Source: Thermodesulfovibrionales bacterium
GTDB taxonomy: Bacteria; Nitrospirota; Thermodesulfovibrionia; Thermodesulfovibrionales; SM23-35
DNA: 40,184 nt
Assembly (NCBI GenBank): GCA_031082155.1
Contig: JAVHLL010000018.1
Location: forward strand, 1 to 40,184
Direction: 5' to 3'
Position 1 is the stretch's first letter. Each line of letters begins with the position of its first letter. The notes under the pieces were generated by a model. That model was not told the DNA's origin and did no database searches. It worked only from the letters and a program-made list of their open reading frames with translations. The translations under genes and the position numbers were made by a program. Shown here in pieces: positions 104 to 32,438 of this stretch.

Positions 104-586
104 TCATTGATTATTACCCTGTTTTTCGGTCAGTTCTCTCATCACCATCTTTATCAGCACCGGCACTCGTTTTTCTATCGTCGGGGTGAGTTCGAGGCCT
201 TCGTCGAGGCTTTCGGGTTCGATGCCGATGAAGACGATCTCTTCGGGCTTTGTGCCGAGCATTTTGGAGGTCTTGATGACGTCGGTGAAATCGATTCCGT
301 GGGCCGTCCTGAGCATCGGCTTGTTATCGGCAAGGCCCTCGTCGGTAAAGCGGTAGATGGTGCCGGGAGGGTCTCCGGTTATTACCGTATCTATGACGAT
401 CACTTTTTTCCTCCCCTCGATATAAAACAGGAGGTTCAGCCCCATGGTCCCTCCGTCCATAAGTTCGATCTCAGAAGGAAAATCCATCTCCATCATTTTT
501 TTTATCGTATGGACTCCGACGCCCTCATCTTTCAGGAGGATATTGCCGATGCCAAGGATGAGGATGGGTTTAAGGGTTAAGGACAT
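104..586 (-). CDS. [NiFe] hydrogenase maturation endopeptidase (HybD/HycI/HyaD family)
   Basis: A 160-residue protein, the usual length of the family that cleaves the C-terminal tail of the hydrogenase large subunit once nickel is in place. The N-terminus has the family motif GIGNILLKDEGVG. Glu21, Asp66 (VIDT) and His96 (RTAHG) match the three nickel-sensing ligands known from E. coli HybD. Its likely substrate is the large subunit at 1517-3307, which keeps a 29-residue tail after the CIACAVH motif. It lies on the same strand as the hydrogenase genes, but beyond their terminator and an acetyltransferase, so it may have its own transcript. No clear Shine-Dalgarno precedes the ATG at 586. The end of the gene runs into an AT-rich TGTTCATTG-type repeat (about 75-120). 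The family call is firm; the assignment to this hydrogenase is inferred from position. Confidence 0.9.
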   Translation of the reverse strand: MSLTLKPILILGIGNILLKDEGVGVHTIKKMMEMDFPSEIELMDGGTMGLNLLFYIEGRKKVIVIDTVITGDPPGTIYRFTDEGLADNKPMLRTAHGIDFTDVIKTSKMLGTKPEEIVFIGIEPESLDEGLELTPTIEKRVPVLIKMVMRELTEKQGNNQ

Positions 587-1516: not shown

Positions 1517-3307
1517 CTAAATCTCGGCATCGTGTGCTAGTCTTGTTGCACTTCCGTCTGTTCCCATCTTGAACTTCATAATCGTTGAACCGTCCGGTTT
1601 TACCACGTGGACAGCGCAAGCGATGCAGAAGTCATAAGTGTGCATAACGCGGAGCAGTGTTATGTAGAGACCATCATCGACACCTGGATTATAAGTCCCA
1701 AGAAGACCTGAGACTACAGCCCAAGGCAGTCCCTGTATCACCTGCTCAGCTGCACCCGGGTTTCCAGCTGTATCACGCGGAGAATGGTTCCATGTGGACG
1801 GAACTACGCACTGGTAATTCTTGATGCGCTTGTTCTCAATCGTGATCCAGTGGCCGAGTGCGCCTCTCGGTGCCTCAGCCCATCCGGCGCCTGATTTAAT
1901 CTTGGTCGGGAGCTTCGCATACACGTATGTAGGAGCGGTCAGATTGGCCGCAAGCTGTGACAGCCATGCTACCGGCGCTGCTGTTTCTGCCATGGCATCG
2001 GCGACGAATTTGCACTCCAGCGCACGGCATGCGTGCCTTCCGAGTATGCTGACCAGAGAACCAGGGTACACAAACGGAGGGTTGAGAAGAGTACCCGCTG
2101 TTGTCGCAAGCTGTGTGATAGTATAATTACCACCCATCAGCGGAGTGACAGGAACTGATGATGATGCTCCCGCTCCGTCGCCAACAGTGGCTCCGTTCCC
2201 TGCGAGAACACTTGCAATTACGCGTGATATCGGACCGACCTCGCAGACTGTAGTTCCAAACCTCGGGGCCTTCAGCCAGGAGTATTCCTGACCAGCACCG
2301 GTGACTTTGGCGACATCCGGCAGGGTCACGCCGTTTCCGGGATAGAGCCCGTCATTTACGCCAAGCGCACCTGCATCGTAGTATGAATAGCCGACAAACT
2401 CCCTGATGTTCGACAGGAAGGAAGTCGGACCGCCGGTTATGGAAAGAGCTAGCGGTAATGTAACCAATCCTCTGCTGAGAAGCAGGGCTTCTGCACTGGT
2501 TCCCGCTTGGATCGGGTACTCACCGTATGACAGGAGTGCCCCCGGCTGTGTGCCTAATGTCCAGTATGTTCCGTAGGTATTGGCAACTGTGACGACGTCA
2601 GGGATGTAAGCGGTGTTGATGAAGTTCCTGACTGTGTCGAGCAGGTTCGAGAATGTGACGACATCAGACATTGTCGGCAGGGTTGTTGCACCGCCCGGAA
2701 CGATGGCGTTCTGGATCGGCTGCCTACCGCTGAAGATTGCGCCTGCGGAATGCATCTTCCTTCTCATGGCGAGCGCTTCAACGTAGTTGCTTACAACCGA
2801 TTGGCCGTTCGGCATTGGAAAAGAACCCGGGATAAGCATTTGCAGTCCGGCTGGAGCTGTATATGTCGGCGAGAACGGGGCGCCAAGAGACGAGGCATCG
2901 ACAAAGTCGAGTGCCGCGAGGTGATAGAAATGGGTGATGTGCGACATGACCGTGTCTGCGCCATGGATCAGGTTGCGGAGGATCTTCCCGTTGTCCGGAA
3001 TATGGGTGCGGCCGTCATCGTTTGTGATCTTTGCCTGCGGGAGTGTCTGGAGATTGGGTGCAACTTCCAGAGCATTGTCAAGGCTTCTCACGGAAGCCAT
3101 GGTATGCCCGGTGGGTCAAACCCCGCAGATTCTCTGGGTGATGACAGGGGCATCTCTCGGGTCCCTTCTCATCAGGATGTTCTCAAAACCCCTGAACATG
3201 GTTCCAGAGGCCTGAGCAGTGACAGTTGAAAGATTCGTATCGACTGTCACAACCCATTTTGAATGTCCTTCTATCCTTGTTAAAGGATCAATAGTAATAG
3301 TTGGCAT
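1517..3307 (-). CDS. [NiFe] hydrogenase large subunit with in-frame TGA (probable selenocysteine) at the N-terminal CxxC
   Basis: Catalytic subunit of a periplasmic group-1-type hydrogenase (H2 to protons and electrons), about 596 residues if the TGA is read through. It starts with PTITIDPLTRIEGH. The N-terminal nickel motif reads RICGV-TGA-PTGHTMASVRSLDNAL, where the family has RxCGxCxxxH, so the TGA at 3116-3118 replaces the second cysteine (residue 64). The C-terminal motif is TYDFCIACAVH (Cys561, Cys564, His567), with Phe instead of the usual Pro in DPC, followed by a 29-residue tail for the maturation protease. The remaining frame is open and well conserved. The start has a strong GGAGGTG site and lies 17 bp after the small-subunit stop. 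An Ala/Thr/Gly-rich stretch occurs near residues 325-375. Without recoding, translation would yield only a 63-residue fragment. The alternatives are a nonsense mutation or a sequencing error. Confidence 0.87.
3082..3098 (-). promoter_or_regulatory. SECIS-like hairpin downstream of the in-frame TGA
   Basis: On the minus strand a perfect 6-bp stem GGCTTC/GAAGCC encloses a five-base loop, CGTGA. After one U-U mismatch, two more pairs (CA/UG) extend the stem. The loop begins 23 nt after the TGA. Known bacterial SECIS elements lie in the coding sequence shortly after UGA, with a short stem and a G among the first two loop bases; this candidate satisfies all of those. It overlaps the conserved codons MASVRS, so coding constraint alone could explain part of the sequence. 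Confidence 0.5.
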
Positions 3308-3324: not shown

Positions 3325-5247
3325 TTAAGCAAAATTGAAGAATTTCCCGACTTTGTCGGGGAATGTAGGTTCTGTACAACCGTGGCATCCGGCACCGCTA
3401 CCAACACACCAGTTAGTGCCGTATCCATTCGGGGCGTCAGCATTCCATCTCCTGAGGGAGCAGTCTGCCTTCGTCTTCCTGCCTTTGCAACCGAGAACAC
3501 CAATGCAGCCTGTATATCTCACATTTGAAATGGGATCGTTGCTCCACTTGTTCTTGTAGAGCAGCGAGCTGTTGATATTGGCGTTCAGTATAGGATCAAC
3601 CTTCGGGTTGGCGTACGGCGGATTTACCTCATCTGCTGCAGTGTAGCCCTGGTTGAAACGCCACTCGCACGGACCTGCGTTGCACTGATACTGGCCGAAA
3701 TAGTCGATCGGACGGCCATATGCCTCGACAGGCGGGAGCTGGAGGTTTGTTGCAAGGATGTAGGCGATGGTGCCGACAATCCAGTCGGAATGCGGCGGGC
3801 AACCACCTATATTGATGGTCTTTGCTGCGAAATCCTGCAGCGCGCCGTTGAATTTACCGGCTTTGACATAGCCTTTATAAAGGGCTCCTGATGCGCCTGT
3901 CCTGTTTCCAGCTGCTGCCGGGATTCCGCCGAATGAAGAGCATGTTCCGACGCAGAGGATGGCTGCTGCGCTTGTACCGAAGAGGGTACATTCATGCAAC
4001 ATGGTCTTGTCCGCCTCGGCTGTTGCGCCAAACTGTCCGCCCGTAAGCGGCGGTAGGGTAACGGCACCCTTCAGGAAGATCTCATCTGTACCACCGATTG
4101 CTAAAGTCCCTGCCAGTGTGAAGACGGTGCTTGTAGAACTACCGTAACCATCAAACAGGGTTGCGATGCCTGAATCAACGATCAACGCATCCTGTACAGT
4201 TCCAGCACCTGGTCCGTCAGTAACTCTTGTCCCGGTTTTCAGGCTTGATCCTGCAGCGATGACGCTTGTTGGAACGACAACCATCGGGCCGCTGACTGCC
4301 CGGCCAATTGTGTTAGAAGTGTCTGAGGTAATTATTCTAACAGTAGCATTTAACGTGAAATTGTTGGCTGATCCGGCATATGTCCATACAGCTTCGGCGG
4401 GCAGAGTGTTAACCGGGGCTCCCAGGGTGTCAACCTCTGAAAGCCAGAGACGGTCGAACGAACTGGTTGCGATGGTTCCGGCTGCCAGTGTTGTGCCAAT
4501 GCCGAGTATGCTTCCCTGCTGGGTCTGCGTGCCTCCTCCGTCTGTACCTCCGGTGACCTCAACGGTACCTGCTGTGACAGTTATAGGATTGGCAAGTATT
4601 ATATTGGCGTTAGTGCGGTCTGTTCCGTACAGGGATGAAACCGCAGTGTTGAAGCTTGCGCCCAACGCTGTCATGGCCGCCCTGTCATCAGCGTCCGCTA
4701 CAATGGTGTCTGCGGGAAGTGTGGTGCCTGCAACGAGCTCACTGCCTGCCCCGATAACGTCATTCGCAGCAAGTGCGACCGGAGCGGCGCCGACGAGTGT
4801 ACCGTTTGCCGATGCTGCGGGCACTGATACGACACTTGAGCCGGCAGCGAGAATACCTCCGGTACGGGACCAGATGGTGCAGAATTCCTCACTACCACCT
4901 GTTGCCGCTGACGGGATCGCACCCTCTATTGCGAGAACGGTTGTTTTTCCGATAGCGCTGACTGCGGCACCAACTGCCAATGCTCCTGCTGATGCACAAA
5001 GCTGCTCATTGTAGTCGAGGTCGATGTCATGGAGTAACAGATCATCAACTTCACGATCCTTTATGCTGTTGGCAAGCGACATCGTGCAGCCTGTGCAAGC
5101 CTGACCCGGAAGCCAGACAACGTGAGGTCCGCCATTGCCGACCTTTGCGAACGACTCTTCGATTTTCAGAAGGTCTGTCGTGGTAAGACCGAGAGCGCCG
5201 GCTGCGATCGTGCAATACTTCAAGAATTCTCTACGAGAAATTCTCAT
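3325..5247 (-). CDS. [NiFe] hydrogenase small subunit, Tat-exported, with a ~290-residue insertion
   Basis: The iron-sulfur electron-transfer subunit, 640 residues where relatives have about 270-380. The N-terminus has a twin-arginine signal (SRREFLK). Proximal cluster ligands are Cys51 and Cys54 (ACTGC), the Cys of VGTCSSFGG and that of GGCPPH. Distal and medial ligands lie in TGCIGVLGCKG, KADC, NWCVGSGAGCHGCTEP. A Cys in NWC, where classic [3Fe-4S] enzymes have Pro, predicts a [4Fe-4S] medial cluster. Where the family has H-x-x-CPRR, this protein has QYQCNAGPCEWRF. Residues about 130-415 are extra: low-complexity Ala/Gly/Thr/Val sequence with repeats such as AAGSSL-x2-GT, inserted between EGAIPSA and the VGTCSSFGG strand. 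The start has a good GGAGGG site. It is co-transcribed with the large subunit and, upstream, the cytochrome. Confidence 0.92.
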   Translation of the reverse strand: MRISRREFLKYCTIAAGALGLTTTDLLKIEESFAKVGNGGPHVVWLPGQACTGCTMSLANSIKDREVDDLLLHDIDLDYNEQLCASAGALAVGAAVSAIGKTTVLAIEGAIPSAATGGSEEFCTIWSRTGGILAAGSSVVSVPAASANGTLVGAAPVALAANDVIGAGSELVAGTTLPADTIVADADDRAAMTALGASFNTAVSSLYGTDRTNANIILANPITVTAGTVEVTGGTDGGGTQTQQGSILGIGTTLAAGTIATSSFDRLWLSEVDTLGAPVNTLPAEAVWTYAGSANNFTLNATVRIITSDTSNTIGRAVSGPMVVVPTSVIAAGSSLKTGTRVTDGPGAGTVQDALIVDSGIATLFDGYGSSTSTVFTLAGTLAIGGTDEIFLKGAVTLPPLTGGQFGATAEADKTMLHECTLFGTSAAAILCVGTCSSFGGIPAAAGNRTGASGALYKGYVKAGKFNGALQDFAAKTINIGGCPPHSDWIVGTIAYILATNLQLPPVEAYGRPIDYFGQYQCNAGPCEWRFNQGYTAADEVNPPYANPKVDPILNANINSSLLYKNKWSNDPISNVRYTGCIGVLGCKGRKTKADCSLRRWNADAPNGYGTNWCVGSGAGCHGCTEPTFPDKVGKFFNFA

Positions 5248-5265: not shown

Positions 5266-5466
5266 CTACTTTTTAATAACTTTTTTGAACAGGGAATTTT
5301 TCCCTGTATTTCGCGAAAAGAATTTCCGCGCTGCTTCCTCACAGGAAAGCTTTGTCTCTTCTTTCTTCTTCTCTTCGCTGAAATTCTGCCATGCGTGCAT
5401 CACATCCTTCAGCATGTCCTTCGAGCCTGAAGTAAAGAAGTCTCTTCTGCTGTACTCTTTCAACAT
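5266..5466 (-). CDS. Small SRRDFF-motif protein of the hydrogenase operon
   Basis: A 66-residue lysine-rich protein starting MLKEYSRRDFFTSGSKDM. The SRRDFF motif looks like the n-region of a twin-arginine signal, but no long hydrophobic h-region follows; instead the chain is polar (NFSEEKKKEETK) with one Cys. I do not recognise a family. It may be the remnant of a Tat-exported ferredoxin-like protein, or a small chaperone or assembly partner. I chose the ATG at 5466 because AGGAG lies just before it and it starts 11 bp after the cytochrome stop; an upstream in-frame ATG at 5523 would overlap the cytochrome gene. It ends 18 bp before the small-subunit start, so it is in the operon. Confidence 0.6.
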   Translation of the reverse strand: MLKEYSRRDFFTSGSKDMLKDVMHAWQNFSEEKKKEETKLSCEEAARKFFSRNTGKNSLFKKVIKK

Positions 5467-5476
5467 GTCTCCTGTC

Positions 5477-6223
5477 TTACCATCTATTGACATGGCAGTC
5501 ATTGCACATATCAGAGCCGGCATTGCTTGACCTCAGGAAGAATACCTGAGTTCCCACTGATTTACCACCTGTCATCTGTTTGCCTATATAAGCAATGGTA
5601 TCATGGACAGAATGGCATGTGGCGCACTCAAACTGATCAGCAGTTGCACCAGTTCCATATAAAGGATAAGTGAGCAGTCCCTGATCTCCAGGAATCCAGA
5701 GTCTCCAGGGTGCTGTCGGGCAGGGCTGTGGCGGCGGAAAACCGTTGTTGTCCTGGTTGTTATCCTTTGTGGGGTCGTACGTGAAGCTGATCGGGTGATC
5801 ATTGGTAAGGTCTGTTCCGAGCATAGCCCAGAAGGTCGGGTTCATCTCATAGTCGTAATTTTCGTTTGTGTGGGAACCCGGTCCCGGATAGTTCACCAGT
5901 GAACTAAACACCCCATTGTGACAAACCAGACAGAGCGAGGACGGAGCCTGGGGCTGCTTGTTCTCGTTCATGTCATATGAAGGGCTGTCATAGAGAGTAT
6001 AAGTCTGTGCTGCCTGATCCCTGTTCCAGATCGGATAGTCACCTGTTCCGGAGTGCGGGCTGTGACACATGGCGCAGGGCTCAAGAGTATCATCTCCTGT
6101 CATTACCCCAACATCATGAGGGGTACCTGCAATACCGGGCTGACCACTTTCTCTGGCCCAAAGCAGTGTAGCAACGCTAAAAATAAGCATAAGCGCTACT
6201 GCTAACAATAAAACTTTCTTCAT
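5477..6223 (-). CDS. Periplasmic tetrahaem c-type cytochrome
   Basis: An exported cytochrome of 248 residues with four CxxCH haem sites, in order CAMCH, CLVCH, CATCH and CNDCH. A Sec signal peptide opens it (MKKVLLLAVALMLIFSVATLLWA). The PCAMCHSPHSG and ECATCHSVHD segments are typical of multihaem electron carriers of metal- and sulfate-reducing bacteria. As first gene of the hydrogenase operon it is the likely electron acceptor for the small subunit, linking periplasmic H2 oxidation to the membrane. The start at 6223 is preferred over an ATG at 6238: the latter lies within the GGAGGTG ribosome-binding site of the former, and the shorter form begins directly with the signal peptide. The gap to the next gene is about 10 bp. 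Confidence 0.92.
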   Translation of the reverse strand: MKKVLLLAVALMLIFSVATLLWARESGQPGIAGTPHDVGVMTGDDTLEPCAMCHSPHSGTGDYPIWNRDQAAQTYTLYDSPSYDMNENKQPQAPSSLCLVCHNGVFSSLVNYPGPGSHTNENYDYEMNPTFWAMLGTDLTNDHPISFTYDPTKDNNQDNNGFPPPQPCPTAPWRLWIPGDQGLLTYPLYGTGATADQFECATCHSVHDTIAYIGKQMTGGKSVGTQVFFLRSSNAGSDMCNDCHVNRW

Positions 6224-6245
6224 TCTTTTCACCTCCATCTCTTTT

Positions 6246-6665: not shown

Positions 6666-7298
6666 TCAAGACAATTCAGAATAATGCAGCGCAAGGTGAA
6701 GTCTGTCAGTTACCCCGAGCTTCTTATAAATGCGGTTACAGTGGGATTTAACCGTTTGTTCGCTTATGTTCAGTTTTTGAGCTATCTCTTTATTCCTGTA
6801 CCCCTGGCAGATATGATGAATAATTTCCTTTTCTCTTTGTGCGAGGCGGACATTTTCAGTTGTCTGTTTTGTAAGAGTGAGAATTTTCATTAACGTTGTG
6901 CGGTCTAACCATATTTCTCCTGCTGAAACCGCCCGTAAGGCTTTTTTAAACAGGTCTGAATCAGCACTCGGGGGGAGTATGCCAATAACCCCTTTCGCAA
7001 TAAGATTTTTCAGGTCTCTGTTTGTGATGAAACCTGAGGTTCTATCTCCCAGAAGAAGGATTTTCAGGCGGGGTTGAACAAAAAAATCATCGGGAAGAGT
7101 TAAAAGCGCGCTTAAGTCAGAATGGAGATCAGACACGATAACATCAGGGTACTGCGCATCCGCTTCTTTCAGGTCACTAAGCCAGCTTTCCCCGGAAAAT
7201 ATCCCCGTAAGGGTAATCCCCTGCTCTTTTTCCAGAAGGCTTTGCAATGCTTCAGAGAAAAGCCTCGTACTGCAGCATATTGCGACTTTTAGGGCCAT
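6666..7298 (-). CDS. LuxR/NarL-type regulator with degenerate receiver domain
   Basis: About 210 residues. The N-terminal half (1-120) has the layout of a response-regulator receiver, with Asp in VIVSDLHSDL at the phosphoacceptor position. The acidic pair near the N-terminus is missing (ICCSTRLF instead of a DD-containing strand), and the conserved Lys after the fifth strand is replaced (GILPPSAD). Phosphorylation may therefore not control it. The C-terminal 65 residues are a clear LuxR helix-turn-helix (LAQREKEIIHHICQGYRNKEIAQKLNISEQTVKSHCNRIYKKLGV, split here by function into scaffold and recognition helix). It stands directly upstream of, and on the same strand as, the hydrogenase operon and probably regulates it. 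The start at 7298 matches the domain edge; an upstream ATG at 7319 is possible. Confidence 0.85.
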   Translation of the reverse strand: MALKVAICCSTRLFSEALQSLLEKEQGITLTGIFSGESWLSDLKEADAQYPDVIVSDLHSDLSALLTLPDDFFVQPRLKILLLGDRTSGFITNRDLKNLIAKGVIGILPPSADSDLFKKALRAVSAGEIWLDRTTLMKILTLTKQTTENVRLAQREKEIIHHICQGYRNKEIAQKLNISEQTVKSHCNRIYKKLGVTDRLHLALHYSELS

Positions 7299-7366
7299 AT
7301 TTTTATGTTTGCACTCCATTCATTGAGTGGATTGTCCCTGTCAAAAAACCGTTTCAATCTCTGCAA

Positions 7367-12320: not shown

Positions 12321-15300
12321 TCAGAACAAGGTATTTTTGATATTTTCCCCAGCATCCAGCAGTAATTGAGCCTCGCGTGTTTTATTCTGGGATAGCAGCA
12401 GCTTCGCAAATTCAGAGAGATACCCTATCAGGTCGGATTTATTGCTCTTCATTTCTTCTACATATTTCGCAGCTTGTTTCTGCTGACCCAGAGTTACATA
12501 CGCTGCGACGAGTGGGAATAACGCCTTTCCATATGCCGGGTTTTTTTTCAACAAAGGTCCAAGGGTATGGACAGACCGGCCGGGATCACCCATAATGATC
12601 TCGCACTGCGCACTCATCATAATTGCATCGCATGACGAGGGATTGAGTTCCAGTGACTTTCTGTATGATGAAAGGGCCTGTGCGTACTGCTTCAGGTTAT
12701 AGTATGTATTGCCTAAACTTTCATATGCCTTCGCAAAATCCGGGTTCAGGGCAATTGCTTTCTGAAAATATTCAAGCGCCTCCCCGTATCTTCCTATTCC
12801 CGATGCCTGTACCGCAAGGTCATAAATCGCCCTGAAGTCATTTCCTCCTTTTTCTGAAAGCCTTTTCTTGCCCAATTCATAGTAGTATGCATTCTTGGTG
12901 CGTAGAGTATCTTCATCAAGCATCCCATAATGGTGAATCGGAATCGGACACTGCCTGATCTCGATGCCCAGATTTTCGAGGGATGGTTCTATACGTTCAT
13001 GAACAGGATTTTCGAATCGTAAGCTTTTATCATTCGGGAACAACCTCACTTTTTCTCCCGGGAACCAGCCCGTACCTGCTTCTTCGTTTTTGTAACTTCC
13101 GTCGTTTGCCACCCATCCGGCGGTGTTTGTGGGCTGAACATAATTTCGGGTAACAAAGAGATAAGCTACTCTGTTTATCCCCCCCTTTTCTAAAGGGGGG
13201 GTAGGGGGGATTACTAATTGTCTCAACGCCTCATGATCCGATGGCGATATCACCTCATCAGCATCCAAAATCAGGATCCAAGCAGATGTGGCTTTTGAAA
13301 GAGCGAAATTCCGTGCATCTGCAAAACTGTCAGTCCACACAAAATCGTATACCTTTGCTCCAAGGTTTTTAGCTCTTTCCTTTGTTCTGTCAGTCGAACC
13401 TGTGTCAACAACAATCATCTCATCGACAAGGGATTTGATGTTTGTAAGCGCTCGGGCGATATTCTCTTCCTCGTTTTTCACAATCATGCAGACAGATAAT
13501 GAAACTGATTGAGACCGCAAAGCCGAGACTGTTTCAGTCTCAACTGAGTCTCCATGGATCTCATTTGTTTTTTGCATCTCTTTGATCCTTCTCTCACATT
13601 CCGCGATCAGAGCTGCAATCTGAGTCGGCATTCTACCCAGGTTTCTTGCCATATTGAGGAGGGACAGCGCAGGTGCAACTCTTTGCTCGGAAAGCAGTAG
13701 TTCAGCAAAATAGACAAAATAGGGGGTGCCGTCAAAGTTCAATTTCTCAAGCTGCTTAAGGTACTCGTTGCCTTTTTCATGTTCTCCAGCGGAAGCATGC
13801 GCAACAGAAAGGAGCAGCAAGGCCATTGGATACTGAGGTTCTTTAATGAGCAATTGTTCGAGATATTCAATGCAATCCCCGGGTCTTCCGCCGCCGATCG
13901 CCGCATGCGCCAGTAGTATCACGGCATCTCTCCACTCGACATGGTCCTGAGCGATTGAAGCGGCTTGTACTAATGCAGAAAATGCTTCCTGAAAGTGATT
14001 CAACCTGTAATGGGCATTACCTAGGCCATAGAATCCTTTCGGGAAATCAGGCATGAGCGACACGAATTTTTCCCAGTGACGCAATGCTTCCTCAAACCGT
14101 CCAAGTTCAGATGTCTGTACCGCGAGTTCATAAATTGCCAGCAGATCATCATCACTTCTAAATTTAGATTTGCCCAGTTCGTAATATTGCTCCCCCTTTT
14201 TCACTACTTTCGTCAGATCCAGCTTGCCGTAGTGATGGACCGGAACTTCACAATCTTTTATCGGTATCCCTGCGGCATTGAGCGAATTCTCGACAAGCTC
14301 ATGCACCGGTTCTTCAAAACGTATGCGTGGATCATTCGGGAACAATCGTACCTTTTTACTCGGAGACCAGCCAGTCCCTATCTCCTGCTCGAGATAGGTG
14401 CCGTCATTCCCAACCCATCCTGTCGTATTCATCGATACAACGTAGTTACGCGAAAAGAGGGAATAAGCAACTTGAGAAGATGAGACACGTTGAGATTCAT
14501 TGAGACTAATTGAGACTGGGGACTGGGTCGTCATGTCTCTACGAATCTCATGTTTTGCAGAAGTTATGAGAGTTCTCAGTTTTTCAAAATCAGAGGGGGC
14601 TATGGCTTCATCGGCATCCAGAATGAGGACCCAATCACCTGTGGCTTTTGAAATGGAGTAATTCCGCGCATCGGCGAAACTGTTCGTCCATTCGAAGTCA
14701 TACACTTTTGCCCCGAACACTTTTGCTGTGTCTTTTGTCCTGTCGGTTGAGCCGGTGTCGACAACGATCATCTCGTCGGCAAGTGGTTTGATGTTCCGCA
14801 GGCACTTGCCTATGTTCTTTTCTTCGTTCTTGACGATCATGCAAACGGAAAGAGTAGTGAGTTGAGTATCTTGTGTTCGTTGCGTTACCTGGGTTTTTTG
14901 TGTCTCCTCAGTGGTATATGAGCTATCAGCTATGAGCAATGAGTTTCCTTTGTTCTTAGTGATTTCCTTCGGCCCTATCTTCTCCCTTAATGCACCGGCA
15001 AGGGCAAGGGAATCATCGTCCATATCAAATGCAAGTAATGCCTTTTCTATTACATCCATGGCTTCCTGATACTGCTCACGCTGCAGGAGAAGATCAGCGA
15101 GTATATATTTGAGCTTCTTGTATGACGGGTGCAATGCCGCAGCTTCACTGAAGACGAATGATGCCCTTTCCAGGCGCTCAAGAGCAACGGAAGCGGAATG
15201 ATAGTTTGTTGCTACGGCTTCCGCAGTCGGAGACAGAATGAATGCCCTTTCAAGCAGTGTAAAAGCAGGTTCATAATTCTGTGCGCTCCATTGCACTGCT

Positions 15301-18300
15301 CCAAGGTTTGCGTATGCCTCTCCAAACCCCGGGTCGGCGTCTATAGCCTCCCTGAAAAGCTGCTCAGCATCAGCATGATTTACCTGCCGGTAAGCCTTCA
15401 TTCCTTTCAGATTCAGTGCTACGGGAGATTTGTTATTCAACGCCAATATTTTGTCGGCAAGAGCATCTGCATCATCGTATTCCTGCATCCCTTCCTTGCA
15501 GATGCCCGCGAATTCGAGCCATCTCACGGTGTTCTTCAATGAATCCGGCACAGCATCGAGCACATCGAGTGCATCCCTGAATTGCCGCTGGCTTACCAAT
15601 AATTCAACAAGCGCGTGATGCAATCTCCTGTCATCAGGGGAGGAACCCAGGCCATCTATGAGTATGGATAGCGCTTTATTCATATCCCCTTTCTCGCTGA
15701 ATTCATGTGATGCCATCAGCGCATTCACTGCATGCAACTTTTGGCTGTTCAGGCTCTGGCTATCAACAACCGACCACTTGCTGACGAAACTTCTTCTTTC
15801 TTTAAAAATCTCTCTCTTCTTTGCCGCAGTGATTTCATCTCCTGCATAGGAGATAAGCACATCCCCTGCAATGAAGTTGCTGAATCCTTCCATTGAAGTC
15901 CTGAGGCAGTAATCTTCGACAGTGAATTCAGGAGAACGGAAACGGTCATCAAAAAGACCTATGATATCGGCCAGATCATGCCTGAATAGCATGCATGCAT
16001 CCTTGAGCCTTCCCACAAGTGCATGACGGTGTTTGTTTCTCTCCCTGAACTCTCTTGCCTTAGTCTCCACAAGGCTCGATGAGTCTCGACGAGTCTCTTT
16101 TATATTTTTGTCATTCCGGCTTGGCCGGAATCTTTCTTTATTTTCAGTTTCACTCGACCCCTTGACCTCTTGGACCCTTGAATTCTGAATTTCTATTCTT
16201 TGCGGTCCCTCTACATTTGTCATCATCGGTCCGATGATTCCTGCATTGTCTACCCTGCGAAGACAATCAAGCATGCCGGAGAGCCAGGATTCCGTGACAA
16301 CAACTCCATCATTGATGATCAGGATATGATCCCCTATTGATTCCGTGATCCCTGCATTGCATACCTCCGAAAAGGTGGGAAAAGGTTTATTTGCTGATAA
16401 AATCCCCCCCAGGCCCACTTTCCCAAATAAATCGGTACCCCCTCCTTTGCTAAACTCCACATCTTTCCCCCCTTTTTGAAAGGGGGGTGAAGGGGGATTA
16501 CTGGTAAAGTGTTCCTCTGATCCTTCATTTTTACCGGTGGGCGTTACCAAACTGTAATTTTCATTCTCCTTTACCAATTTCCTCATCCATTTAGGAGGGG
16601 CAAATGAATGATCGAGAGGTACAAAGAGAATCTCATGGTGTTCGGGGGTATGTTTTCTGATGTTTCTTATGCATTTTCTTGTAGCATCATTATCACCGGA
16701 TATGAGCAGGATAATGGAAACGAAATCCTTACGGTAAGTGTTCTGCTTCCGGGGTTTATCTTCTTCAAACGGTTTGGGGCTTGTTGATATACAGGCTGTC
16801 GGCTCTCCAAATGCCTCTCTTGACACTGAAATGTCTGAAGTGAATTGCTCCGGTGATTTCATTCCTCCGGTATACTGCTTCAATTGAATCAATGCATTTT
16901 TGAATGGATCATCAAGCCGGCTTTCTCCGCGCTTCTGATCCATCTCTCTTAAAGCATTCAGGCCGCGCTCAGCATCCTCGGCTGTTGACAGATACTTCGG
17001 AACATACTTCTGGAAAATTTGCAAATCTTCACGAATCCTCTTTTCCTTGTCCCTGTGTTCTGCGCCCTGAGGAGAGTACAGGTAAAGCCCAAGGTATTCA
17101 GGGATATGGAGCATCTGGGTTCCCTCGGCAATCCTCAGCCAGAATTCCCAGTCTCCCGATGAGGCAAATGATTCATCAAAATAGCCGTACCTGTCGTGGA
17201 GCGCTTTCCTCCACATGGGTTGCGGGCCCATATAGCAGCAGAGCGTTAGGATCTCCCTGTTGTAATCCTTCCAGTGATAAGCTCCACTGGGTGTGTGATG
17301 ATCGAAGGTCTCATTTTCTGTCGCGGTTTTAATGACGTCTGCATAGACGAGGCCAATGTCAGGATTCTGATCGAGTGTGTTTGCCATGATTTCCAAAGCA
17401 TCTTTCCGGTGTCGGTCGTCCGCATTGGCATTGGTGATGTAGTTACCGGAGGCGAGTTTGATGCCACGGTTCCATGCGGCATACACTGTTTCGCGTTTTG
17501 TCCGGACATAAATGATGTTTTCAGAGGTGTTTTGAAACTCTTCTACAATTGCTTTTTCATTCTGCTCAGATCCACTGTCAATGACAATAATCTCAAGTTC
17601 GCCCTTTTGATATAAGGTTTGCTCTATAAGGTCTTCAAGGCATCCGCGCATGAACCGCTCTGAGTTGTAGGTAGAGATGATGGCAGAGACTCTGATTTCG
17701 TTTGAAGGAATAACAGGCTGAGGTGAAGCACTCTTAAGTTGTGTGATATTCTTTGAGGGTGATGGCTGTAATGTTTTTTCCGAAAATTTTGCAAACCATA
17801 TACTGGTATTATCAAACACACCATGTTCAGAAATATCAGACCGCGAGAAGATCAATTCATTTACAGCTTTTATAACACCTTGGCCATCAGAGCTGTAGTC
17901 ATGTCCACAGAGAATACCCCCGGGTTTAAGACATTTAAGAGATATAGAAATGTCGCGATGGACATTCTCATAATCATGAGCCCCATCAATAAAAATTATA
18001 TTGAAGAATCCAGGAAGCAGAAAATCACTGAACTGTTCTGTAGATCCCCGTAGAATACGAATTTTTTCACTGAACCACTCGGTCTGGCGCAAAAAATCCT
18101 CAAAAATACCAAAGTCTGTTGTTAGTAGTGTGTGGGCTGTTGAATCAAGCTGACGGATGCCCTGTTGTTCAAAATTACGCCAAATATCCAGACAATATAA
18201 CTCACGTGCTGAATTTTTGATTGCGTAACCGATAGCATTTGTTGATTTGCCCCGGTAAGAACCAATTTCAAGAATTTTTGCCTCTGCAGGTGATCGTCTT

Positions 18301-21236
18301 ACGAGTCTGTATAAAGCTAAAATTTCCGGTGTTGTAAACCATCCTCCAACCTTTTCTATATTGCATGCAATTGCAGTTTCTTCAGCGTCTGGTGGTGTTT
18401 TCATAAGTTCTGGTAAGTTTGATGAACTTATACTGCTTTTGTCCCCCCAATTAATATCCCAAATGTCTAAGTCTTTGAAATATTCTTTCCCATATTGTTC
18501 AAACCATTCCAGAACCTGCTTTTCACGCCAAACTTCAGGTGCGTCGAGAATTGATTTATCGAAGAAATCATATCCCTTGAACCATTCTTCAGGAGAAGGC
18601 TTAAGCCCTAAATTACTTTCGTCTTTGCTTGGAGCATATAAGGCATTGATATCGCTTATAGACTTTTCGGGATTACGGATACGTTCCAAACATCTATACC
18701 AGGCCTGCTTGATAAGAAGATTTCTCCAGTTCACAAACTGAAAATGCATTAAACCATATTGGTAACCTTTTATTACAAAATTATTACCTTTAAGATTAGC
18801 CGGAATCCTTCCTAAATGAAAATCCTGCTGATGGTATGAACACTTGCCATCATCCGCAAAAATAAAGGCTTTGTAGTTATTTGTCCAGACGGAATTGTCA
18901 TAGCGATATTGGGTAGCTGAGCGCCAGAGTTGGATCCAGGCTAGAACTAACGAATCACCTGGCTGAAGTTTAAGAATTTCATCCCTTAATTTGTTCCCTT
19001 CAGTAAGGTTTGCCGTAAATGCTTCATCCACATCAATGATAATAAAATGTGTTCCGCCAATCGTCCGTCCTGCCTCAAGAAGAGGTTGACGGTATCCAGT
19101 TTCATTATATTCCCATTTTTCTTTGCGCAAAATTCGCTCTATATTGCACTCTTTGGAGAGAGATGAAACAATTTCAACGGTCTTATCATTTGATGCATCA
19201 TCCAGAATACAGATTGCATCTGCAAATTGAGCAACAGCTTTTAGGCAAAATTCGATATATTTTTCTTCATTTTTAGCCGGGATGAGGGCAACGATTTTCT
19301 TCTTATTTGTAAATTCAGTTTTACCATGTTCTGGTTTAGTAATCATCAATTGGGAGGTTGCATCAGAAAAATGTTCCTGAATCCAAGGGTCATTAATAGC
19401 AGAGGGAAAAAGGTTATCGGCATTTTGAAATAATATCAGTCGACCTCGTAAGTGCTCTGCAATTCTTATATTCGCAAAATCAGAATAATTTGGCAACAAG
19501 GCATGATATGTATTATGAGGATTTAGGTATGGTAGAACAGCACTCAAGTCGCATACTTTACCTGCTCCATAGTCATCATAGCCGTATTCATTGTGTCCGG
19601 GAACCTTAAAGTCATCAACGATAATGATTGCTTGGCATTGTGAATCGGATATTAATTGAATTTCCTGAGGCAATGGCCAGTAATTTTCCCAGTGCGCATC
19701 TAAAAAGAAAATGCATTTATCTTCCTGATTAAGTTTCGGGAGCCATTCAGATAAAAACACGTCTGAACTCTTCAGGATTTGTTTGATATTACTATATCTT
19801 GCAAGACGTACTTTGCTAATTTCATGAAATTGCTTATTAGAATCGGTGGTCCAGATCATTGTGTGAGGGTAATTCAGTGCAATAAATTCTGTCGTCCATC
19901 CTAAAAAAGTACCAGTCTCAACAATATGGGAAGGTGAAAATATTCTAATGATCCAATCAAAAAAAGCTTGAAAATAGATATCTCTATGAAATGCATGTTC
20001 TATAGGCGATTGTTTGATCAGTTCAATTGCTTTTTGAAAAGGTGTTTCTTGGTTAGTTAACATGAAGAGTTTTTCTTCTCCAGATGCAATATTTTTAGCT
20101 TCTTTTGTTTCTAATAATCGAAGTGCAGCGCAATATATTGTCTCTTTATGACTTGACATATTAACGGGGGATTTTTTTATGAGATATTTATCATGTCCAC
20201 CTATAGTTCTACATCCACAAAGCCAAATAATAGCCTCTTGAGATTTTGATAAATCGCTGTTTTCGAGTGCAATCATCGGCTGGGGTTCTGACATTGCTAT
20301 GCCATTTTGGGAAACTATAAGTGAAAGAAGAGAAATGGCATGTCTATTATTTAAACAATCGGTTGATGGATATAAGAGTTTTTCATCGGCAGCGAGATGG
20401 AAGGCAGAATCTATAAGCTTAGCTTTAACAATACCACGTGAAGAATACCCTTGCACCTCATTTATTACTTGTAAAGATGTGTCGCGAGCTTTTTCAATAC
20501 CAAGTTTTTCATATACATTATTCGTTGACCAATCGCGGTTAAAATTTCCGACACTATGCCAAAGGCCATAGCCATTATCAATAATTAAATCGAATATTGG
20601 TGAAAGATCTTTTAGAATCTGCACTCCGGCTTCGCAAAACAAAAAGGGGCCAGCGGTTTCTTGTTCTGCACAATCTTTAATTGACCAAAGCTTCCAAGTC
20701 CCCCAAGCGAGCGCGTGAGGATTAAAAAAAGGCACTTTTTTGACTTTAACTGCTGCCAATTGTGAAAGATACTCGCTTTGAGTATCTGATAAACCCAAAT
20801 CATATACGACTATTTTCCATAAATTTTGAATACAGTGCCGATGCAAACTCCCGATGAGATCAATTAATTGAGGAAAATTGAAAGAAGAAGCAGCACTAGC
20901 GATTACCCATTTGCCATCATTGAAAATATTATTTTTTTTAGGAATAAGAGTATCGATTAGTGGCGGAACATACTCACATGGTCGATTAGTTTGTTGTAAG
21001 AGGATGGTAATTTCTTTGCTGAGATCCTCAGGTCTCAGTTGAATTGATTTAATATACTCCCTCGTTTGCGACGGAATTCCATATCGCAAATATGATTTTG
21101 CCAATTCTAGACGTATACGCACGCTATCATTGCCACTTTGTAAGTGTCTCATAAGAAAAATAATTGCTTCATGGGGGGATAGTTTTTGTGCATCTTGAAT
21201 TATTGATTCAAGCGAAGCTTTTGATTTATCAATCAC
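12321..21236 (-). CDS. Giant multidomain glycosyltransferase/methyltransferase/TPR protein (2,971 aa)
   Basis: A single uninterrupted frame. Approximate domains by residue: helical TPR-like start 1-85; glycosyltransferase-like domain 105-365; methyltransferase-like 400-640 (IVETGTFLGWTTE); GT2 644-930 (VALIPAKNEEKY, IIIDVDEAF); methyltransferase 960-1150 (ILEIGSYRGKST, FIDGAHDY); GT2 1178-1440 (VSAIISTYNSERF); GT2 1505-1795; TPR 1830-2090; GT2 2125-2320 and 2579-2760, both of the WaaE-like beta-glucosyltransferase type (LSVCMIVKNEE, LILDADE); TPR 2345-2555 and 2790-2971. The last two GT2-TPR modules are a tandem duplication. Six stretches appear to be translated intergenic repeats. It should assemble several sugars of one glycan in the cytoplasm. 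The 5' 3.4 kb is AT-richer than the rest, suggesting fusion of parts of different origin. The start is an ATG with weak SD. Confidence 0.85.
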   Translation of the reverse strand: MIDKSKASLESIIQDAQKLSPHEAIIFLMRHLQSGNDSVRIRLELAKSYLRYGIPSQTREYIKSIQLRPEDLSKEITILLQQTNRPCEYVPPLIDTLIPKKNNIFNDGKWVIASAASSFNFPQLIDLIGSLHRHCIQNLWKIVVYDLGLSDTQSEYLSQLAAVKVKKVPFFNPHALAWGTWKLWSIKDCAEQETAGPFLFCEAGVQILKDLSPIFDLIIDNGYGLWHSVGNFNRDWSTNNVYEKLGIEKARDTSLQVINEVQGYSSRGIVKAKLIDSAFHLAADEKLLYPSTDCLNNRHAISLLSLIVSQNGIAMSEPQPMIALENSDLSKSQEAIIWLCGCRTIGGHDKYLIKKSPVNMSSHKETIYCAALRLLETKEAKNIASGEEKLFMLTNQETPFQKAIELIKQSPIEHAFHRDIYFQAFFDWIIRIFSPSHIVETGTFLGWTTEFIALNYPHTMIWTTDSNKQFHEISKVRLARYSNIKQILKSSDVFLSEWLPKLNQEDKCIFFLDAHWENYWPLPQEIQLISDSQCQAIIIVDDFKVPGHNEYGYDDYGAGKVCDLSAVLPYLNPHNTYHALLPNYSDFANIRIAEHLRGRLILFQNADNLFPSAINDPWIQEHFSDATSQLMITKPEHGKTEFTNKKKIVALIPAKNEEKYIEFCLKAVAQFADAICILDDASNDKTVEIVSSLSKECNIERILRKEKWEYNETGYRQPLLEAGRTIGGTHFIIIDVDEAFTANLTEGNKLRDEILKLQPGDSLVLAWIQLWRSATQYRYDNSVWTNNYKAFIFADDGKCSYHQQDFHLGRIPANLKGNNFVIKGYQYGLMHFQFVNWRNLLIKQAWYRCLERIRNPEKSISDINALYAPSKDESNLGLKPSPEEWFKGYDFFDKSILDAPEVWREKQVLEWFEQYGKEYFKDLDIWDINWGDKSSISSSNLPELMKTPPDAEETAIACNIEKVGGWFTTPEILALYRLVRRSPAEAKILEIGSYRGKSTNAIGYAIKNSARELYCLDIWRNFEQQGIRQLDSTAHTLLTTDFGIFEDFLRQTEWFSEKIRILRGSTEQFSDFLLPGFFNIIFIDGAHDYENVHRDISISLKCLKPGGILCGHDYSSDGQGVIKAVNELIFSRSDISEHGVFDNTSIWFAKFSEKTLQPSPSKNITQLKSASPQPVIPSNEIRVSAIISTYNSERFMRGCLEDLIEQTLYQKGELEIIVIDSGSEQNEKAIVEEFQNTSENIIYVRTKRETVYAAWNRGIKLASGNYITNANADDRHRKDALEIMANTLDQNPDIGLVYADVIKTATENETFDHHTPSGAYHWKDYNREILTLCCYMGPQPMWRKALHDRYGYFDESFASSGDWEFWLRIAEGTQMLHIPEYLGLYLYSPQGAEHRDKEKRIREDLQIFQKYVPKYLSTAEDAERGLNALREMDQKRGESRLDDPFKNALIQLKQYTGGMKSPEQFTSDISVSREAFGEPTACISTSPKPFEEDKPRKQNTYRKDFVSIILLISGDNDATRKCIRNIRKHTPEHHEILFVPLDHSFAPPKWMRKLVKENENYSLVTPTGKNEGSEEHFTSNPPSPPFQKGGKDVEFSKGGGTDLFGKVGLGGILSANKPFPTFSEVCNAGITESIGDHILIINDGVVVTESWLSGMLDCLRRVDNAGIIGPMMTNVEGPQRIEIQNSRVQEVKGSSETENKERFRPSRNDKNIKETRRDSSSLVETKAREFRERNKHRHALVGRLKDACMLFRHDLADIIGLFDDRFRSPEFTVEDYCLRTSMEGFSNFIAGDVLISYAGDEITAAKKREIFKERRSFVSKWSVVDSQSLNSQKLHAVNALMASHEFSEKGDMNKALSILIDGLGSSPDDRRLHHALVELLVSQRQFRDALDVLDAVPDSLKNTVRWLEFAGICKEGMQEYDDADALADKILALNNKSPVALNLKGMKAYRQVNHADAEQLFREAIDADPGFGEAYANLGAVQWSAQNYEPAFTLLERAFILSPTAEAVATNYHSASVALERLERASFVFSEAAALHPSYKKLKYILADLLLQREQYQEAMDVIEKALLAFDMDDDSLALAGALREKIGPKEITKNKGNSLLIADSSYTTEETQKTQVTQRTQDTQLTTLSVCMIVKNEEKNIGKCLRNIKPLADEMIVVDTGSTDRTKDTAKVFGAKVYDFEWTNSFADARNYSISKATGDWVLILDADEAIAPSDFEKLRTLITSAKHEIRRDMTTQSPVSISLNESQRVSSSQVAYSLFSRNYVVSMNTTGWVGNDGTYLEQEIGTGWSPSKKVRLFPNDPRIRFEEPVHELVENSLNAAGIPIKDCEVPVHHYGKLDLTKVVKKGEQYYELGKSKFRSDDDLLAIYELAVQTSELGRFEEALRHWEKFVSLMPDFPKGFYGLGNAHYRLNHFQEAFSALVQAASIAQDHVEWRDAVILLAHAAIGGGRPGDCIEYLEQLLIKEPQYPMALLLLSVAHASAGEHEKGNEYLKQLEKLNFDGTPYFVYFAELLLSEQRVAPALSLLNMARNLGRMPTQIAALIAECERRIKEMQKTNEIHGDSVETETVSALRSQSVSLSVCMIVKNEEENIARALTNIKSLVDEMIVVDTGSTDRTKERAKNLGAKVYDFVWTDSFADARNFALSKATSAWILILDADEVISPSDHEALRQLVIPPTPPLEKGGINRVAYLFVTRNYVQPTNTAGWVANDGSYKNEEAGTGWFPGEKVRLFPNDKSLRFENPVHERIEPSLENLGIEIRQCPIPIHHYGMLDEDTLRTKNAYYYELGKKRLSEKGGNDFRAIYDLAVQASGIGRYGEALEYFQKAIALNPDFAKAYESLGNTYYNLKQYAQALSSYRKSLELNPSSCDAIMMSAQCEIIMGDPGRSVHTLGPLLKKNPAYGKALFPLVAAYVTLGQQKQAAKYVEEMKSNKSDLIGYLSEFAKLLLSQNKTREAQLLLDAGENIKNTLF
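13172..13218. repeat. C7/G7 palindrome inside the giant gene
   Basis: CCCCCCC-TTTTCTAAA-GGGGGGG with a trailing TAGGGGGGATTA. In the gene frame it encodes PPTPPLEKGG, an insertion of about 16 residues in the last GT2 domain just before VAYLFVTRN. It is a member of a family usually found between genes. Confidence 0.75.
14470..14560. repeat. GAGACT-type repeat inside the giant gene
   Basis: Contains TTGAGATTCATTGAGACT and ATTGAGACTGGGGACTGGG, related to 604-634. It is translated as SISLNESQRVSSSQ in the penultimate GT2 domain, immediately before VAYSLFSRN. This is the same position at which the C7/G7 palindrome interrupts the paralogous last GT2 domain. Confidence 0.6.
16060..16200. repeat. 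REP-like plus CTCGACCCCTTGACC-type repeats inside the giant gene
   Basis: Contains TTGTCATTCCGGC-TTG-GCCGGAATCTTTCTT (about 16114-16144), flanked on the left by GAGTCTCGACGAGTCTC and on the right by CTCGACCCCTTGACCTCTTG. The REP unit and its ATTTTCAG flank match the real intergenic copy at 12283-12325. It is translated as about 50 polar residues within the third GT2 domain. Confidence 0.75.
16381..16505. repeat. C-rich/G-rich palindromic repeats inside the giant gene
   Basis: Includes CCCCCCTTTTTGAAAGGGGGG (about 16467-16487) and a preceding arm with AATCCCCCCCAGGCCC. Translated as NPPSPPFQKGGKD and KVGLGGILS within the third GT2 domain, between the strand YSLVTPTGKNEG and NAGITESIGDHI. The peptide PPFxKGG is the known signature of translated copies of this intergenic repeat. 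Confidence 0.75.
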
Positions 21237-25210: not shown

Positions 25211-27040
25211 ATGTATATGGATATAAATCAGGCCATACGGTTAGCTTTTGAATATTATCAAACTGGGAAATTGAATGAGGCTGGAAAGCTCTGCAATGAA
25301 ATCTTGACAATGCAACCTGACAATTTTCATGCATTAGGTCTTTTGGGGGCGGTATGTTATGAGGGTAAGGATTATGCCTCCGCGATACGTTATTTAAAAC
25401 AGGCGTTAGAGATTAATCCGGGGAATGCCAATGTATATTATAATTTAGGACTCGCTCTGCATGAGCCAAAAACGCTTGATGAAGCGATAGTGCATTATCG
25501 CAAAGCGTTGGAGCTTGAACCGGATTTTACTGATGCATATTACTATTTAGGCACAGCGCTGAAAATGCAGGGAAAGCTGAATGAAGCGGTGGAGTCTTTT
25601 GATAATGCACTCTCTTATGATCCCTGCCATGTCAAAGCGCGCTGGGCCCGATGTATGTCCAGACTAAATATTATTTATCCTGATGAATCGAGTATTCAGT
25701 CCTCCCGGAGCCGTTATAGGGATGAACTGATACAATTACAGGAAATACTGGTCCATGAGGTGCCACAGGATTTAGAAGCCCTTGCCGAAACAGTAGACAA
25801 TCAGAAACCCTTCTATCTGGCCTATCAGTGCTTGAATGATAGAGAGCTGCAGCAGATCTATGGTAGTCTGGTATGCAGAGCCATGTCTTTCAAATACCCT
25901 CAGTTTTTCAATCATCCTCCTCATCCCTCTTATACGAATGAAGAACCGTTGAGGATCGGTATTGTGTCCGGGTATTTCTGTGAGGGGTCTGTCTGGAAAA
26001 TTCCGCTGAAAGGCTGGCTCGAGAATATCGATAAACAACGGTTCAACCTTTACGGATACCATACGGGAAATATAAACGATGAGAATACTGAGATTGCACG
26101 ACAATCCTGCAGAAAATTTGTTCATGGCAGGTATTCATTCGAGAATCTCTGCAAGATTATTCGAGAAGATAATCTCCATGTGCTGATTTACTCTGAAATC
26201 GGTATGGATCCAATCTCGCTGAAGCTCGCCGCGCTCAGGCTTGCTCCTCTACAATGTTGTGCTGTTATGGGACATCCGCAGACATCAGGACTTCGGACGA
26301 TTGATTACTATTTGAGTAGCGATCTCATGGAGCCCCCTGATGCTGATGATCATTACGATGGAAAATTAATACGTTTGCCGAATCTCTCTCTGTACTATAC
26401 ACCAGTTGAAGTCTCGGGTACATGTATTGATCGTCAGACCTTTAACCTGCGTCCGGAGTCGACCCTTTATCTTTGCTGTCAATCAATATTTAAATATTTG
26501 CCTCAGTATGACGAGGTGTATCCGAGAATAGCCCAACAGATAGGCGACTGCCAATTCCTGTTCATTGAACATCAAATGAATTATATTACAGAAGAATTTC
26601 GCTTGAGGATAGGACAATCATTTGATCGGTTTGACATGAATGCTGACGACTATGTTGTTTTTCTGCCCCGCCTTGATCCGGCACAGTATCGTGCGATAAA
26701 TGAACTCTCAAATGTATTTCTTGACAGCATAGGCTGGTCAGGATGCAATACCACGTTTGAAGCAGTTGCCTGCAATTTGCCTGTGGTGACTCTTCCGGGC
26801 AACCTGATGCGGGGCCGGCATGCTTTCGCAATATTAACCATGATGGATGTAACAGAAACCATAGTAAATGCTCTTGATGAGTATATTTCATTGGCTGTCC
26901 GACTCGGACAGGATGCAGAGTTGCGTACATACATATCAGAAAAGATATCGAGAAATAAGCATCGCATCTATAACGACAATACCTGTATTCGGGCACTTGA
27001 AGAATTTCTTGAAGCAATGGTAAAAGAAAAGCTGACATAA
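25211..27040 (+). CDS. TPR / divergent GT41-like (SPINDLY-related) protein
   Basis: 609 residues. Residues 5-145 are four TPRs; the rest is a divergent O-GlcNAc-transferase-like half starting at about 238 (PLRIGIVSGYF). The fold signature is kept: RLAPLQCCAVMGHPQTSGLRTIDYY, CQSIFKYLPQYDEVYP (Lys at the OGT Lys842 position), GCNTTFEAVACNLPVVTLPG and RGRHAFAILTMM. The two histidines conserved in the three sister proteins are replaced (GYFCEGSVWK and YSEIGMD). It may use a different acceptor or mechanism, or be a non-catalytic partner. The start may be ATG 25211 or 25217; MDINQ is the usual beginning in this set. The next gene starts 4 bp after its stop, so the two are co-translated and may act together. 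Confidence 0.8.
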   Translation: MYMDINQAIRLAFEYYQTGKLNEAGKLCNEILTMQPDNFHALGLLGAVCYEGKDYASAIRYLKQALEINPGNANVYYNLGLALHEPKTLDEAIVHYRKALELEPDFTDAYYYLGTALKMQGKLNEAVESFDNALSYDPCHVKARWARCMSRLNIIYPDESSIQSSRSRYRDELIQLQEILVHEVPQDLEALAETVDNQKPFYLAYQCLNDRELQQIYGSLVCRAMSFKYPQFFNHPPHPSYTNEEPLRIGIVSGYFCEGSVWKIPLKGWLENIDKQRFNLYGYHTGNINDENTEIARQSCRKFVHGRYSFENLCKIIREDNLHVLIYSEIGMDPISLKLAALRLAPLQCCAVMGHPQTSGLRTIDYYLSSDLMEPPDADDHYDGKLIRLPNLSLYYTPVEVSGTCIDRQTFNLRPESTLYLCCQSIFKYLPQYDEVYPRIAQQIGDCQFLFIEHQMNYITEEFRLRIGQSFDRFDMNADDYVVFLPRLDPAQYRAINELSNVFLDSIGWSGCNTTFEAVACNLPVVTLPGNLMRGRHAFAILTMMDVTETIVNALDEYISLAVRLGQDAELRTYISEKISRNKHRIYNDNTCIRALEEFLEAMVKEKLT

Positions 27041-27043
27041 GCA

Positions 27044-28654: not shown

Positions 28655-28700
28655 TCGTGCCAGAGGTTCGGTACATATGAAGCCTCTGCACTATTGAAGT

Positions 28701-28898
28701 TTAATCAAAAGAATTCCTCGAAGCTTTGCTTCGGGGTAACTATATCCCTTATTCTGTCATTCCCGCTTGTCGGGAATCCTTCTGAGATAATGCGTATACA
28801 CAATAATACTGAAAAGCAAAGAAAGATTCCGGACAAGCCGGAATGACATCTTTAGATACCTCGTCCCGAAAGCTTTCGGGGCTGCGGGGTTATTCATT
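28701..28898. repeat. Composite palindromic element, copy 2 (198 bp)
   Basis: Same sequence and orientation as the other two copies. The 20-bp palindrome has one change (GGGGC for GGGAC). It sits between convergent genes, and its right end TTATTCATT supplies the stop codon of the hepT-like gene (TCA on the plus strand at 28894-28896). Confidence 0.92.
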
Positions 28899-29756: not shown

Positions 29757-29953
29757 GAAAAAATATTAACACACAGGGCATGGTATTGCAACGAATTGCT
29801 ATGCATCAGGGGTTTGGCCCTTGTCTTCTTTTTTTACTCTTGGTAGCCTCTGCAATTGCCATAATCCTCAGGGTAGTTTTGCGAAAACTCTCGCGTATAT
29901 AGCAAAATAAGTGAATAGAGCACAAGAAATGAGACACGGGATGCTTCACAGAG

Positions 29954-31612: not shown

Positions 31613-31646
31613 CCTACAGCCTAATTTGGAATATAGGTTACTACAA

Positions 31647-32390: not shown

Positions 32391-32438
32391 AAGCGCTATG
32401 TATTTTTTGTTGGTTGATCGAACATTCAGCGTGAGATT

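Follow-up and report, generated by a model that had tools for sequence, protein, structure and literature searches.

A probable selenocysteine codon at the bridging-cysteine position of a [NiFe]-hydrogenase large subunit in Thermodesulfovibrionales

The window considered here, i.e., the whole 40,184-nucleotide stretch of Thermodesulfovibrionales DNA that was analyzed, contains a gene for the large subunit of a [NiFe] hydrogenase in which an in-frame TGA occupies the place of a metal-binding cysteine. The locus raises the question of whether this codon is read, with which amino acid, and whether an enzyme of this kind has been described before.

The large subunit and its gene cluster

The elements of the large-subunit gene on which the analysis relied were as follows:

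1517–3307, minus strand: [NiFe]-hydrogenase large subunit, 596 aa plus stop, with one in-frame TGA (Pfam PF00374, PDB HysA, AF2 model)
3116–3118, minus strand: TGA codon of residue 64, the putative selenocysteine (Sec), at the bridging Cys of the N-terminal CxxC (HysA alignment, 18 homologues, order-wide recurrence)
3125–3127, minus strand: TGC encoding Cys61, which in the N-terminal motif binds Ni terminally (66 of the 89 related genes have TGA here)
1616–1627, minus strand: C-terminal motif Cys561-x-x-Cys564 (DFCIACAVH), both residues encoded by normal Cys codons
3314–3322, minus strand: strong Shine-Dalgarno sequence AAGGAGGTG, preceding ATG 3307–3305 and read directly from the sequence

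When TGA was translated as U, the frame running from 3307 to 1517 (minus strand) had a single internal stop, the TGA at 3118–3116, in the context ITQRICGV-U-PTGH. The product matched the PF00374 (NiFeSe_Hases) domain with an E-value of 9.4e-104 and 348.6 bits, against a curated cut-off of 25.8, and in the phmmer comparison with PDB sequences its best match was HysA of D. vulgaris (4.7e-76), so that Pfam, NCBIfam and PDB all pointed to a [NiFe]/[NiFeSe] large subunit; in the phmmer alignment, U64 fell on the second Cys of QRICGVCPTAH in that protein (5jsu). The AF2 model was of middling confidence (mean pLDDT 72, pTM 0.83), and its best Foldseek match was 2wpn_B, the large subunit of the D. vulgaris [NiFeSe] enzyme (TM-score 0.90 by target). 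The initial annotation, which described the TGA as the only interruption and placed it on the second Cys of the N-terminal CxxC, was thus borne out by the 596-codon frame and the HysA alignment, as was its reading of two ordinary cysteines in the C-terminal motif. The region that it gave, 3050–3307, does lie within the gene's N-terminal portion; it came without the strand, which is minus.

Alignment of 18 homologues revealed that R59, C/U61, C/U64, C561, C564, H567, E13 and R481 were invariant, with U64 taken as Cys, and that all four Ni ligands of the two CxxC motifs were Cys or Sec in 18/18 sequences, as is characteristic of [NiFe] large subunits. The proton-gate Glu13, the active-site Arg481, the C-terminal His567 and a nearby HycI gene belong to the same set of characters; His567 follows the C-terminal motif at the expected maturation cleavage site, where cleavage is predicted. 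The second N-terminal Cys of the family (C64 in E. coli Hyd-2, C68 in D. gigas) forms the Ni/Fe bridge, and we take residue 64 to be its counterpart. By homology, residue 64 would therefore bridge Ni and Fe, and the presence of an in-frame TGA at the bridging-Cys column was confirmed.

The gene belongs to a cluster that includes the following neighbors:

3325–5247, minus strand: hydrogenase small subunit, 640 aa, with the Tat signal RRxFLK and the cluster cysteines present
104–586, minus strand: HycI/HupD-type maturation protease of the same cluster (Pfam, NCBIfam)
5477–6238, minus strand: multihaem c-type cytochrome (CXXCH), the likely electron partner, upstream of the small subunit
6666–7319, minus strand: LuxR/GerE-type regulator, upstream of the cytochrome

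An acetyltransferase-like gene separates the large subunit from the protease. The order cytochrome, small subunit, large subunit was also found in the related genomes G014 and G003, and in G014 the protease and the adjoining LuxR-type gene were present as well. Between its cluster-binding parts, the small subunit carries about 260 inserted residues, among which Ala, Gly, Thr and Val abound, at a site where G014 and G003 have a short stretch only. A small ORF of 85 aa without a Pfam match (5266–5523, minus strand) lies between the cytochrome and the small subunit and overlaps the cytochrome gene. Elsewhere in the window, a 2971-residue ORF (12321–21236, minus strand) with glycosyltransferase family 2 domains, a methyltransferase domain and TPR repeats is located among several TPR/glycosyltransferase-41 genes (25211–38383). 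The host genome (G000) encodes two more group-1-like hydrogenases with all-Cys ligands, on contigs C2 (L145:4576-6015) and C12 (L146:3425-4987), the N-terminal motifs of which are RICGVC and RFCGVC.

Recurrence of the TGA and the hairpin downstream of it

A DNA pattern for R-[IF]-[C/U]-[G/A]-V-TGA-[P/T] was run on 176 genomes (85 genera) of the order, with the reversed pattern as a control. TGA at the bridging column was found in 89 genes from 87 of the 176 genomes and 51 of the 85 genera, while the reversed control returned 0. The first (terminal) position of the N-terminal motif was also TGA in 66 of these genes (UxxU) and TGC or TGT in the other 23 (CxxU). This pattern required the second TGA; the converse pattern, with TGA in first place and TGC/TGT in second place (UxxC), gave 0 matches in the same 176 genomes. 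Consequently, within the reach of these patterns, the bridging Sec comes first and the terminal Sec is optional. Sampling across the phylum (396 genomes) gave 92 positives, which all came from the same class, some of them from outside the order, and the rest of the phylum sample gave none; UxxU was additionally present in two genomes of the Actinobacteria-type class (the class of MAG L060). Homologues with Cys were common and had TGC or TGT at the TGA column, so that the alternation of UGA with UGC and UGU, proposed initially as a check, was indeed observed.

Phylogenetic analysis of 103 large subunits placed N-terminal Sec in at least three places, namely, the group of the window gene (G000, G003, G012 and G014), the Actinobacteria-type pair and a HynB/Hyd-2-like group. 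A careful tree, thinned to 55 rows, required four changes, and a single clade of N-terminal Sec was rejected by the AU test (p 1e-4). A single origin was thus rejected, with the caution that several branches were long and the data set was thinned; this comparison of trees does not separate independent gains from losses or horizontal transfer. The classical enzymes with C-terminal Sec formed one separate clade (support 100), and the window gene was located outside it.

The mRNA downstream of the TGA can form the following element:

3082–3098, minus strand: SECIS hairpin with a 6-bp stem GGCUUC/GAAGCC (3098–3093 with 3087–3082) and the apical loop CGUGA (3092–3088)

The hairpin occupies nt 18–34 after the TGA codon (nt 21 to 37, with T of TGA as 1) and has G at the second position of its loop, as expected from the rule that a bacterial SECIS is a hairpin just downstream of the UGA with G in a small apical loop (PMC1088965). 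An Rfam search of the window gave no match. Compared with synonymous shuffles, the hairpin of the window gene had z -2.79 (p 0.012), and the mean z against synonymous-codon shuffles was -1.21 in Sec genes, compared with -0.10 in Cys genes and -0.49 in genes with C-terminal Sec. Among 21 Sec genes, 89.7% of the cells paired, five of the six pairs had changed on both sides, and the covariation score was 0.478 vs 0.173 after shuffling (0/500), these 21 rows having been picked for being in this register, which favors the structure. In the same columns of 20 Cys homologues, covariation was at the shuffled level. With three registers allowed, all chosen on the Sec set, 30/41 Sec genes vs 0/45 Cys genes had a complete stem in one of them. 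In UxxU genes (related loci L010, L012, L060, L157 and L034), the second UGA itself starts a further hairpin (UGACCCA..UGGGUUA, UGACC..GGUCA or UGAAC..GUUCA) that is mostly missing from genes with one UGA. Its mean z was -0.92 in UxxU vs +0.47 in CxxU genes, with few genes individually significant and the related genes not independent; it is suggestive only, and this hairpin may help to decode the first UGA.

Decoding machinery and competing readings of the TGA

The host genome (2.65 Mb, 100% complete) contains the whole bacterial selenocysteine set, which had been named at the outset as something to be sought: selA (608 bits), two selB genes over the cut-off that are 62% identical to one another, two selD genes that are 52% identical (C35:120915-121838 and C35:75993-76916 of G000), and a canonical tRNA-Sec (selC) with a UCA anticodon, G73 and an encoded CCA. 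Each selD has its own in-frame TGA near the N-terminus, at the catalytic Cys/Sec site of SelD. Together with an in-frame UGA that aligns to a functional Cys in Cys-containing homologues and with the hairpin described above, this is the composition expected of a bacterial selenoprotein gene and its host. Across the 176 genomes, selA was present in 84/87 carriers of the TGA gene vs 69/89 non-carriers (Fisher p 2e-4, uncorrected for kinship), and tRNA-Sec was found in 10 of the 11 carriers tested for it. In G003, G101 and G171, the three carriers in which selA was not detected, a canonical tRNA-Sec is present, so that a missing contig is the likely cause. No tRNA-Sec match was obtained in the Actinobacteria-type carrier G460 (1.3 Mb, probably incomplete). 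Sec machinery was also present in G028 and other f10 genomes of the order, in which the pattern found no TGA hydrogenase.

A second match of the tRNA-Sec type in the host (G000:C35:118549-118639; L153:4550-4642; RF01852, 56 bits) combines a tRNA-Sec-like body with a GCA anticodon and U73, which are identity elements of tRNA-Cys, and lies directly upstream of selB2 (G000 C35:116653-118506). Such a tRNA beside selB presumably matches the type that Vargas-Rodriguez et al. in 2018 are said to have named tRNA-ReC and that reportedly recodes UGA with Cys; the GCA anticodon, U73, the tRNA-Sec-like body and the adjacent selB make up the likeness. The GCA-type tRNA was found in all four window-type carriers (G000, G003 by eye, G012 and G014) and in G438, as well as in G028, a genome without a TGA hydrogenase; in six HynB-like carriers tested, none was above the threshold.

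This arrangement gives substance to an alternative in which SelB recodes the UGA with Cys through the tRNA-ReC-like tRNA-Cys, either always or under selenium scarcity, leaving an ordinary [NiFe] site. The position of this tRNA beside selB2 in the host, its presence in all window-type carriers and G438, and the recoding reported in the 2018 study speak for it. However, canonical tRNA-Sec, SelA and SelD are present as well, the six HynB-like carriers have the UGA and no GCA-type tRNA above the threshold, which argues for Sec as the product in the family at large, and keeping UGA at one column would have little point if Cys were always inserted. This alternative, in either form, is judged unlikely, though by no means negligible. 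For the window lineage, a tRNA-Cys of Sec-like shape beside a second SelB means that the UGA may sometimes be read as Cys, and the codon may accordingly give Sec, or Cys as a fallback.

The remaining readings dispense with recoding of this codon by SelB. A lone TGA one base away from TGC or TGT in draft assemblies might raise the suspicion of an error in sequencing or assembly, or of a pseudogene with a nonsense mutation of recent date; but the same codon occurs in 87 genomes and 51 genera, two of the carriers (G024 and G030) are single-contig genomes, which speaks against assembly error, and the flanks, the SECIS and the operon are conserved. Recurrence in 87/176 genomes refutes this reading for the family, and for the window gene it is highly improbable. 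Close relatives were checked for a decayed gene and none was found: conservation extends to both flanks of the UGA, and the operon is kept among them, in agreement with what had been said initially of an intact frame and operon. If the TGA terminated translation, the 527-aa ORF that exists from the internal ATG 3100 could yield a truncated product with a non-hydrogenase role. Yet the strong Shine-Dalgarno sequence before ATG 3307–3305 indicates that translation begins upstream of the TGA, and none is visible before ATG 3100 on direct reading of the sequence. Residues 1–63 are at least as conserved as the remainder (56–60% vs 45–50% to G014 and G003). As had been pointed out, such a start would cost the Ni-binding motif, since both N-terminal Ni ligands are lost, together with Glu13, while the maturation protease and the small subunit are still kept; a shortened protein is accordingly very hard to credit. 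Finally, no evidence was found in favor of TGA as a sense codon genome-wide (code 4 or 25), and many ORFs of the host genome and its relatives end in TGA, whereas the in-frame TGAs found sit at Sec-type sites (SelD and the hydrogenase), so that the chance of such a code is vanishingly small.

Recoding as the way to a working enzyme, which was the initial proposal, is thus supported by the conserved TGA and its alternation with Cys codons, by the sel genes, by the covarying hairpin and by the lack of decay. The preferred reading, considered very probable, is that the locus encodes an uptake [NiFe] hydrogenase, exported and linked to a cytochrome, in which SelB and the SECIS put Sec at the second N-terminal Cys. 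SelB, directed by the hairpin, would insert Sec at residue 64; judging from what is known of the family, the large subunit would bind Fe(CN)2CO and Ni, and the neighboring protease would cut off the tail after His567 once Ni has been inserted. A Ni-Se-Fe bridge, by homology, would then stand in place of Ni-S-Fe, and the dimer, exported by Tat, would deliver the electrons of H2 to the cytochrome. Many relatives would have Sec at the terminal N-terminal ligand as well, and in the window lineage the tRNA-ReC-like tRNA-Cys with its own SelB may allow Cys at this UGA, for instance under selenium shortage. Compared with a thiolate, a bridging selenolate should be softer and more acidic, and it should be re-reduced more readily after oxidation; the likely advantage, again from family knowledge, is a putative guarding of the N-terminal ligands from lasting oxidation along with tuning of catalysis.

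Relation to known selenium hydrogenases and significance

With the [NiFeSe] HysA enzymes of D. vulgaris Hildenborough (5jsu) and Desulfomicrobium baculatum (1cc1), the putative window enzyme would share the large-subunit fold, the exported heterodimer and Sec insertion by SelB and a SECIS. In those enzymes, however, Sec takes the place of the first Cys in the C-terminal motif (DPULGCAVH) and is a terminal Ni ligand, whereas here it would be at the N-terminal bridging Cys, and often at the terminal one too in relatives, while the C-terminal motif retains Cys (DFCIACAVH instead of DPUxxC). Since the C-terminal Sec is absent, the enzyme is a variant of the [NiFe] hydrogenases and not a classical [NiFeSe] member. 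The NCBIfam HysA model gave 328.6 bits on the window protein vs a cut-off of 780, and none of the N-terminal-Sec proteins tried reached the cut-off of an NCBIfam model.

Methanogens also have Sec-containing hydrogenase subunits, FruA, VhuU and VhuD with two Sec. The multi-Sec VhuD, unlike the window large subunit, is not a Ni-binding subunit, and the alpha subunit of the methanogen [NiFeSe] enzymes (F420-reducing and F420-non-reducing) carries a UxxC motif (PMC13188914). Two reviews of prokaryotic selenoproteins, one of them PMC13188914, give hydrogenase alpha subunits with UxxC only. Engineered precedents exist. Sec was placed at single Ni ligands of E. coli Hyd-1 (PNAS 2021) and, in the C61U, C64U, C546U and C549U variants, of Hyd-2 (Evans et al. 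JACS 2024, PMC11212049), where all four variants were active, below the native enzyme. These substitutions include the N-terminal pair, C64 being the window column by homology; they were made singly by UAG suppression, and the same text, in its accessible part, mentions neither natural bridging Sec nor double Sec. Activity with Sec at each position indicates that the chemistry of a bridging Sec is feasible. A synthetic [NiFe('S2Se2')(CO)3], obtained from a nickel selenolate precursor, models the [NiFeSe] site (PMC4510704) as a small molecule, while the window case is a protein. In the open-access PMC literature, no report of natural bridging or N-terminal Sec in hydrogenases was found, bridging Sec appearing there only in engineered form. 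The initial view that a bridging Sec had not been described thus held within that literature, and as far as it shows, a natural bridging Sec is new, although priority is not certain.

A wider proposal, put forward tentatively, is that these genes represent a widespread natural class of [NiFe] hydrogenases with Se in the Ni-Fe bridge, mostly as UxxU on nickel and of several independent origins. In the window lineage, the UGA might moreover be switchable between Sec, supplied by the canonical tRNA-Sec, and Cys, supplied by tRNA-ReC and a second SelB dedicated to it, which would make a selenium-responsive site from one gene.

In the hydrogenases known so far, Se is a terminal Ni ligand and has been studied in that position with H2 production and O2 tolerance in view. 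With a natural selenolate as the bridge, and often a second Sec bound to the same metal, the inner coordination sphere would be a different one, and the scattered distribution of bridging Sec over the tree suggests that it is useful. Standard gene callers would truncate these genes ahead of the N-terminal motif, so that surveys requiring an intact CxxC would miss them; such overlooked hydrogenases would be present in about half of the sampled genomes of the order. The effects of bridging Se on H2 binding, catalytic bias and recovery from O2, so far approachable through engineered E. coli variants with reduced activity, would thereby become testable in natural enzymes.
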